Origin: Acidobacteriota bacterium
GTDB lineage: Bacteria; Acidobacteriota; Terriglobia; Acidiferrales; UBA7541
Assembly: GCA_003223255.1 (NCBI GenBank)
Contig: QHYJ01000152.1
Location: 1 to 32,359 of the forward strand
Direction of reading: 5' to 3'
DNA length: 32,359 nt
Positions 9,803 through 10,968 of this stretch are shown here, piece by piece. The first letter of the stretch is position 1. Every line of letters begins with the position of its first letter. The notes beneath the pieces are model-generated. The model was not told where the DNA came from. It saw nothing but the letters and a program-made list of their open reading frames with translations, and did no database searches. The position numbers were made by a program, and so were the translations under genes.

Positions 9803-10582
9803 TCAATACAGGTGAAAATATCCGTCATGGTGCCCCAGCCGTACTTTTGCATTGAACAGTTTTGATAAGTTTTCTTCGGTCAGGATCGCCGCCTTGGGTC
9901 CGTCGGCGAGAATCCGTCCTTCGCGCAACAAAACAACCCGCTCGATTTCCGGAATGATTTCCGACACGTGATGGGTTACCAGCAAAATGCCCAGGCCCGA
10001 CTGCGCCAGCGCGCGCAAGGTTTCGCGCAGCTGCAATCGCGCCCCGATGTCCAGCGCATTGCTCGGCTCATCAAAAAGCAGCGTTTGCGGGTTGTGCACC
10101 AGCGCCCGCGCGATCAGCGTTCGCTTGGCTTCCCCGGAAGACATTTGCGCCACGGGCCGGTCCGCAAGGTGCGCGATGCCCAGCCGTTCGAGCGCGGCCT
10201 CGGCGCGCCCGAGGAGTTCCGGCTCAGGATGATGATGCGGCAAAATGCGCGTGCTGCTGAAAAATCCGGAGAGCACCACATCCTTCCCGGTGGCCTCGGT
10301 GGTGCACGACACCAGCAGGTCCGGCGACACAATTCCCAGCAACGAACGCAACTCAAAAATGTTCCACCGTTCGTGCCCTAGAATGGAGATCGAACATCGG
10401 TCCCGCGCCAGGGGATAGCACTCGCGCGTGATGGTCTTGATCAGCGTGGACTTCCCGCAGCCATTCGGCCCCAGGATGCACACGTGCTCCCCGGCCGCAA
10501 GTTCCAGGTTGACCTCCCGGAGCGCGGCGCAATTCCCGCGCATGACCGTGACATTTCTAAGGGAAAGCAGGGGTGGCGCCAC
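9803..10582 (-). CDS. ABC transporter ATP-binding protein (YlmA/ModF-like)
   Basis: A complete 259-residue single-domain ABC ATPase: Walker A G-P-N-G-C-G-K-S-T (38-46), signature M-S-S-G-E-A-K-R (147-154), Walker B L-L-F-D-E-P-S-N-A-L-D (168-178) and the switch histidine in V-T-H-H (204-205). Overall organisation resembles stand-alone ATPases such as YlmA and the molybdate-related ModF, whose roles are poorly known. No permease or binding protein is adjacent, so transport function is not supported by context. GTG start at 10582 is preceded by GAGGAG. A candidate structured RNA ending in a strong terminator lies 180 nt upstream on the same strand; it could be independent or act as a leader. 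Confidence 0.9.
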   Translation of the reverse strand: MAPPLLSLRNVTVMRGNCAALREVNLELAAGEHVCILGPNGCGKSTLIKTITRECYPLARDRCSISILGHERWNIFELRSLLGIVSPDLLVSCTTEATGKDVVLSGFFSSTRILPHHHPEPELLGRAEAALERLGIAHLADRPVAQMSSGEAKRTLIARALVHNPQTLLFDEPSNALDIGARLQLRETLRALAQSGLGILLVTHHVSEIIPEIERVVLLREGRILADGPKAAILTEENLSKLFNAKVRLGHHDGYFHLY

Positions 10583-10762
10583 AACTACTCCTCATCTTTC
10601 GTTGGATTCCTCTGTAACTTGCCGGCAGCGGCGGGACTGGCCCTGCCCGCTGCGACTTGCTGGTCAATGCCGGAAGAGCACACCAAATACTGTGCCTCTG
10701 GTCGCAGGCTCATCTTAACCGAGGGAACGGCCAAGCCGTGCCGTAACCTCACCAGGTAGAAC

Positions 10763-10797
10763 AAAAAGGAGGTGAAAACAAAGGCGTTTTCACCTCC
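10763..10797 (-). terminator. Strong intrinsic terminator
   Basis: On the minus strand GGAGGTGAAAAC (10797-10786) and its exact complement (10779-10768) form a 12-bp perfect stem with a 6-nt loop, followed by five T (10767-10763). This is a textbook Rho-independent terminator for minus-strand transcription; on the plus strand there is no T tract. Confidence 0.85.
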
Positions 10798-10932
10798 CGG
10801 AGTGGATGGGGTGTTGCATGTCGAAGCCCTGGGGCGGCTCAGCAGGCCTGCCCTGCCAGGCAGGTCTGCGGCCTCACTCGCGTGTTGCTTTTAGCAATTC
10901 GTTAGGAGACGCACCACCAAAGAGCCTCTCTT
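10763..10932 (-). ncRNA. Candidate ~170-nt structured small RNA
   Basis: Between a near-consensus promoter (10968-10940) and a strong terminator (10797-10763) lies a 170-nt region with no reading frame but several complementary segments. On the RNA strand I see a long G/C-rich arm made of GGC/GCC, GCAG/CUGC and CCUGCC/GGCAGG with a hexaloop (about 10873-10837), a small hairpin UUGCU-AAA-AGCAA (about 10897-10885), and a long-range pairing GGUGGUGC with GCAACACC (about 10918-10911 with 10817-10810, one mismatch). A rod with a closing stem, a bubble holding a small hairpin and a long terminal arm is the general layout of 6S RNA, and the length fits, but I recognise no conserved 6S sequence. Alternative: attenuator leader of the ABC ATPase gene. 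Confidence 0.5.
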
Positions 10933-10939
10933 GGAGCGC

Positions 10940-10968
10940 GTTTTAGCACTCGAAACCGCAAGTGTCAA
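10940..10968 (-). promoter_or_regulatory. Near-consensus sigma-70 promoter of the small RNA
   Basis: Minus strand: perfect -35 TTGACA (10968-10963), exactly 17 bp spacer, -10 TAAAAC (10945-10940). Start of transcription is expected near 10932-10934. It is the best promoter I found by eye in the window. Confidence 0.7.

Follow-up and report, generated by a model that had tools for sequence, protein, structure and literature searches.

A predicted small RNA gene of uncultured soil Acidobacteria with a conserved C-rich strand before its terminator

What is encoded by a unit of about 170 nt that has a promoter at one end, an intrinsic terminator at the other and no conserved open reading frame (ORF) between them? 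Such a unit lies at positions 10763 to 10968 of a 32,359-nt stretch of DNA, the whole of which was analysed and is called the window below, from an Acidobacteriota bacterium (GTDB lineage Bacteria; Acidobacteriota; Terriglobia; Acidiferrales; UBA7541; contig QHYJ01000152.1, assembly GCA_003223255.1). The initial annotation, made from the letters alone, had regarded it as a complete non-coding transcription unit and had noted a layout like that of 6S RNA, and had suggested a new acidobacterial RNA or an attenuator for the neighbouring ABC ATPase gene. Comparison with related genomes indicates that the unit is a real, new and family-restricted small RNA (sRNA) gene of uncultured soil Acidobacteria of the Ca. 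Acidiferrales type. As to its action, our judgement is evenly balanced on a stand-alone antisense RNA that works in trans with its C-rich strand as the seed; transcription, trans action and the role of the seed are what we infer from sequence. The features of the locus are as follows.

10963..10968, minus strand: -35 box TTGACA, identical in 30/30 same-genus loci and in 65/66 family loci with a detected promoter (L085 repeats L029).
10940..10945, minus strand: -10 box TAAAAC with TGC directly before it (extended -10 type), behind a 17-bp spacer.
10763..10933, minus strand: small RNA of about 170 nt, its predicted start at about 10932-10933 placed by the position of the -10 box and its end lying in the T-run.
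10913..10928, minus strand: 5' strand of the closing stem P1 (approximate), which holds a GGUGGU element; from folding and alignment.
10871..10910, minus strand: hairpin P2; from folding and alignment.
10843..10869, minus strand: hairpin P3; from folding and alignment.
10823..10838, minus strand: 3' strand of the closing stem P1 (approximate); 5/17 P1 pairs have changes on both sides.
10799..10817, minus strand: C-rich strand GCAACACCCCAUCCACUCC, the proposed seed, whose usual form is GCAACACCCCACCC(C)ACCCC; from comparison of tails.
10763..10797, minus strand: intrinsic terminator, a 12-bp stem and T5; from the sequence and covariation across 48 family tails.
9803..10582, minus strand: ABC ATPase gene with one ABC_tran domain (PF00005), the downstream neighbour and not part of the RNA.

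The promoter described earlier, TTGACA and TAAAAC separated by 17 bp, is confirmed on the minus strand, as are the extent of the unit and its terminator. The terminator arms, GGAGGTGAAAAC (10797-10786) and GTTTTCACCTCC (10779-10768), enclose the loop GCCTTT and pair perfectly over 12 bp, and the T-run TTTTT (10767-10763) directly follows the stem. The predicted folding energy of the 206-nt minus strand is -87.1 kcal/mol (z = -4.54), a value that none of 200 shuffles matches, and the longest closed frames in 33 sequences span 7 to 48 codons, with no ORF conserved among them. With a promoter and an intrinsic terminator of its own and no conserved ORF, the locus qualifies at sequence level as an sRNA gene.

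The boundaries of the unit are also those of its conservation. By a BLAST-type search the element is present in 32/61 genomes, 31/36 within the genus once G050, a 25-base match, was dropped, and it occupies one place per genus genome, barring second matches to the self-complementary terminator. A covariance model raised the count to 34/36 genomes of the genus and matched the window at 10760-10939 with 180.1 bits. All 30 same-genus loci, one of which (L021) ends at a contig edge inside the terminator, carry TTGACA, 17 bases ending in TGC or TGT, and then a hexamer starting with TA. When the query was extended by 300-nt flanks on each side, similarity began 0-18 nt before the -35 box among the matches reaching it (31-32 nt in the exceptions L020 and L021) and ended at the T-run; between the T-run and the ABC gene there was a single 30-base match (L005), the next match being mostly the ABC gene itself. 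Because the unit is conserved and its intergenic flanks are not, it appears to be an independent one, and the earlier description of a complete transcription unit holds in this sense.

Beyond the genus, the covariance model, R1, matched 69/95 genomes of the order, or 67/89 of the family after G097 and G077 were dropped as weak matches with neither promoter nor body; 33 of these 67 belong to other genera. The loci of 65 carriers were read, and G098 and G100 were counted as matches without reading. None of the six genomes of two sister families was matched. Among 299 genomes drawn from the class, R1 matched 56, and the two lying outside the family, G146 and G177, turned out to be terminators behind the end of an apparent frame and were rejected as small RNAs. 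A model of the tail, R2, reached at least 48 bits in 66/89 family genomes, the 67th carrier (G022) ending at a contig edge, and in none of the six genomes of other families; in a 396-genome draw from the phylum, the genome of the window alone exceeded 38 bits with R2, the large range searches using stricter filters by which weak matches are lost. When named genomes were scanned for the tail pattern, 56 stretches came up: 52 carry the names Acidobacteria, Terriglobia, Ca. Acidiferrales or Ca. Acidiferrum, one that of Betaproteobacteria, and one each Nocardia, Streptacidiphilus and Thermus. A script found the TTGACA promoter upstream in 51/56, the exceptions being Nocardia, Streptacidiphilus, Thermus, L133 and L153.

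The RNA does not appear among known families. With Rfam 15, no family exceeded the gathering threshold in the window or in the loci of 20 relatives, and the sole match in the region at E 10 was a chance-level ybhL (E 6.9), in keeping with the unfamiliar sequence noted at the outset. Acido-1 (RF01686) and Acido-Lenti-1 (RF01687), given as non-coding RNA candidates of Acidobacteria (PMC2864571), match neither the window at gathering nor the region at E 10. For Acidobacteria, the table of one survey has only 4 distinct annotated sRNAs (PMC9029176), and no paper on such an RNA emerged from the titles and abstract beginnings of the open-access literature, subscription papers and preprints lying outside the search. 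The suggestion of a new acidobacterial RNA is supported by its presence in 31/36 genus genomes by BLAST and 67/89 family genomes by covariance model.

What has been kept in this RNA across the family is above all its tail. In other genera the body diverges to the point that it cannot be aligned by eye with that of the genus, and its length, as measured by script in 31 loci, lies between about 106 and 189 nt; retained are the promoter, GCAACA..CCCCACCC(C)ACCCC and a terminator with covarying pairs. Across 48 family tails, 14 columns are invariant, six of them in the C-tract, and 8/14 terminator stem pairs show changes on both sides, which indicates that the terminator stem is conserved as structure and the C-tract as sequence. 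The C-tract is also predicted to be exposed, and this is supported in the genus only. Its mean unpaired probability there is 0.90, versus 0.56 with shuffled bodies; 33/33 sequences lie above the control and 31/33 exceed 0.7, and the window copy itself has a value of 0.90. In the window copy the C-tract (10799-10817, minus strand) reads CCCCAUCCACUCC, in which a U separates the first C-run from GGGAG, as in no other listed tail. The 3' terminator arm reads UCACCUCCUUUU, the letters of the 16S rRNA 3' end; mimicry of the anti-Shine-Dalgarno sequence was rejected as a conserved function, as relatives alter the arm (UUGCCUCC, CGCCUCC, GCGCUCC) and keep the stem.

The body, too, shows signs of compensatory change. 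For the genus, the favoured model is a three-way junction, in which the closing stem P1 encloses the hairpins P2 and P3 and is followed by the C-rich strand and the terminator. It was returned for alignment A2 (28 sequences; the truncated L021 and the divergent L029 were excluded) by RNAalifold when its covariation and penalty weights were reduced, and likewise by the mean of single-sequence ensembles, with P1 pairs at 0.36-0.75. Altogether 90.9% of 1512 cells pair, versus 46-51% in slid versions, a figure favoured by the derivation of the structure from the same sequences. The covariation score is 0.146 (slid 0.054-0.084, shuffled 0.126), and cells with both-side changes number 27 (slid 7-24, shuffled mean 8.1); neither value was reached in 500 shuffles. 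By pairs, 11/55 have both-side changes (9 body pairs and 2 terminator pairs), which exceeds all shuffles, though not the slid versions (4-13). The paired segments of the earlier description are borne out in relatives with this reservation, and the 6S-like rod with a bubble gives way to the three-way junction.

In a second genus group (13 sequences), a different three-way junction is predicted, with GUGG closing on the CCAC of the tail. Here 10/33 pairs have both-side changes, in P3 and the terminator (slid 2-4; 0/500 shuffles), P2 being excluded as the alignment shifts there. The four GUGG/CCAC pairs are invariant and so give no proof of pairing; under default settings, too, the 13-sequence alignment folds with GUGG against the tail, in a shifted register. 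GUGG occurs near the 5' end in many genera, not in all (it is absent from L066, L067 and L071, for example). A signal of compensatory change in the body is thus seen in two genus groups at the level of alignments.

How might such an RNA act? On the antisense reading, the gene would be transcribed independently, from a sigma-70-type promoter to an intrinsic terminator, and its product would act in trans. The folded 5' body would present the C-rich strand, and this strand would pair with G-rich stretches of the GGGGUG/GGUGGGG type near the ribosome-binding sites of a few mRNAs. Pairing may proceed without Hfq, perhaps aided by the Hfq-related Sm-like protein of these genomes; such Hfq-free pairing would be in line with the strength of G-C pairs and the scarcity of canonical Hfq in the family. 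Canonical Hfq exceeds the cut-off in 1/89 family genomes (G034, on an 11.8-kb contig), versus 7/8 genomes of other families. A divergent Hfq-like Sm protein gives matches at E 1e-5 in 34/89 family genomes and a weaker one in the genome of the window, where the best Pfam match of the protein is 'Hfq related' (PF21979).

Several results weigh against the antisense reading, beginning with the slid comparison of both-side pairs given above. In the genus, RNAalifold joins GGUGG to the C-tract instead, both at default settings and under RIBOSUM scoring. In other genera the C-tract is scarcely more exposed than its control (0.66 vs 0.64; above control in 13/31 and beyond 0.7 in 9/31), the window copy has two substitutions in it, and an Hfq-related protein is still present in the family. 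Searches for targets gave nothing convincing, which also points this way, although gene starts were taken from a simple script, which weakens the negatives, and a handful of specific targets would lie beyond detection. A 12-mer complement had 7 non-self matches in 36 genomes, versus 12 for the backward pattern. In the genome of the window, near-complements with at most 3 mismatches occur in 20 places, one being the RNA itself, versus 10 for the backward pattern. In 400 kb each of G010 and G023, strong duplexes form at 40/272 gene starts vs 50/263 interiors and at 28/316 starts vs 20/310 interiors, respectively, and neither start count lies outside what 10 shuffled seeds give at starts. The mean start-interior difference in G023, 0.79 kcal/mol, exceeds that of shuffles (0.12-0.47); it is close to that of the reversed seed (0.67), and the difference in G010 is opposite in sign. 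At the starts of outer-membrane-receptor genes (22/30 loci usable) the mean is -11.8, vs -11.9 for shuffles. As an observation apart, CarboxypepD_reg (PF13620) is greatly expanded in the genome of the window (G000), with 113 matches at E 1e-8, many of them in frames of >1000 aa.

Next in rank after the antisense reading comes a protein-binding role, which we consider somewhat unlikely. The C-rich strand and the terminator hairpin would dock an RNA-binding protein (Rho, the Hfq-related protein, or one of the cold-shock or KH type), and the RNA would serve as scaffold or decoy. The identity of the C-tract is kept beyond what structure demands, the target searches yielded no convincing complementary mRNAs, and the PF21979 protein occurs in the same genome, all of which suit this role; none of the results points to a specific protein. 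On a bolder reading, which seems improbable, a switchable long-range helix between the 5' GUGG and the C-rich tail would expose or hide the C-rich strand of a lineage-defining RNA, with the PF21979 Sm-like protein as its partner where canonical Hfq is nearly lost.

The neighbourhood of the gene bears on a cis-acting role, in which the RNA would attenuate the ABC ATPase gene behind it or serve it as a riboswitch. In the first genus set, 25/29 assessable loci do have this gene downstream on the same strand, 50-204 nt past the T-run, as do 3/4 further genus loci (the exceptions are L018, L019, L029, L030 and L084). The linkage is not constant, however, for it is found in 0/30 assessable loci of other genera, the loci extending about 1.2-1.7 kb downstream and L077 having no downstream sequence; moreover, a TAAGAT box lies between the T-run and the gene in 14/25 loci, with near variants in 6 more. 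Since the C-tract stays unchanged where the terminator arm shifts from GGUGA to GGCGA, no C-tract antiterminator is supported (other antiterminators were not searched for), and Rfam gives no riboswitch or other match over the gathering threshold. Control of the ABC gene, which the initial annotation had offered as one option, is accordingly very improbable, and the small RNA is, to judge from these loci, independent of that gene. On the promoter side, the upstream gene encodes a hybrid histidine kinase, in the orientation of the RNA, in 28/65 distinct loci, some of them cut short; one kinase fragment examined has HisKA, HATPase_c and Response_reg. Both links have exceptions, in agreement with an independent gene. 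In the window itself, the promoter side holds a C-terminal fragment matching Phage_integrase (PF00589; 11345-11566, minus strand), probably a decayed tyrosine recombinase.

It could also be argued that only a terminator is conserved and that the part upstream is a spacer or a short mRNA, as the terminator with about 19 nt before it is the best-conserved part. We give this still less credence, for a TTGACA-type promoter with a spacing of 16-18 stands in 66/70 loci examined, the body shows compensatory changes in two genus groups, and the C-tract is rare at other terminators. The four loci lacking such a promoter, L098 and L099 (weak R1 matches in the family) and L100 and L101 (outside it), were left out of the RNA set. 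In stretches of two relatives, CACCC lies within 25 nt upstream of 2/36 and 1/25 predicted terminators, one in each being this small RNA, a rarity on which the C-tract was also rejected as a general terminator enhancer. Second-tier matches of the tail model in the family were likewise rejected as paralogues; the 20 inspected resemble terminators behind protein genes, with no TTGACA promoter at its customary position. The matches inspected outside the family besides L100 and L101, namely L214, L215 and L217, are terminators shortly past the end of an apparent frame. At L226, L230-L235, L239 and L240, an element resembling GGACACACCCCGGGAAG recurs with a terminator behind one and the same gene end (..RQLMRLIGHRDEKWRKYLFY), that of an HNH-like gene; the element could be a further conserved RNA or simply a terminator.

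Least credible of all is a diverged 6S RNA (an RNA polymerase mimic). In its favour are the length of about 170 nt, the long closing stem and the result that RF00013 locates no 6S RNA elsewhere in the genome, where it gives just a sub-threshold match of 13.2 bits. Against it, RF00013 has no match in the region at E 10 or, at gathering, in the loci of 20 relatives; the favoured fold is a three-way junction and not a bubble-bearing rod; in other genera the homologues have lost both the length and the rod, two of them measuring about 106-107 nt with little 5' structure; and the conservation lies in the tail.

The locus would also offer a test of riboregulation within a clade that has an Hfq-related protein and almost no canonical Hfq. 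As a well-bounded family with a clear promoter, a fold and a near-invariant core, this RNA allows targets and partner proteins to be searched for directly.

Among known systems, 6S RNA (RF00013) is similar in length, in having its own promoter and in its closing stem, and differs in that no covariance match, no central bubble in the favoured fold and a conserved tail are found here. A precedent for the antisense reading is offered by the alpha-r14 sRNA family, including NfeR1, of Rhizobiales, in which a C-rich motif is ultraconserved and unpaired while the stems diverge (PMC10746234). That motif, however, is CCUCCUCCC, present once in each of three hairpins, whereas here one ACCCCACCCACCCC strand lies between body and terminator, in another phylum; CCUCCUCCC was not seen by eye in 30 genus sequences or the listed tails, in which CCUCC is part of the paired terminator arm. 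The third is RepG of Helicobacter pylori, whose C-rich pairing region at the terminator targets G-rich leaders and whose gene adjoins that of a two-component regulator (PMC8295292). The present RNA likewise has a C-rich region at its terminator and, in 28/65 loci, a hybrid histidine kinase upstream; unlike in RepG, its C-rich strand is placed 5' of a terminator whose loop varies.
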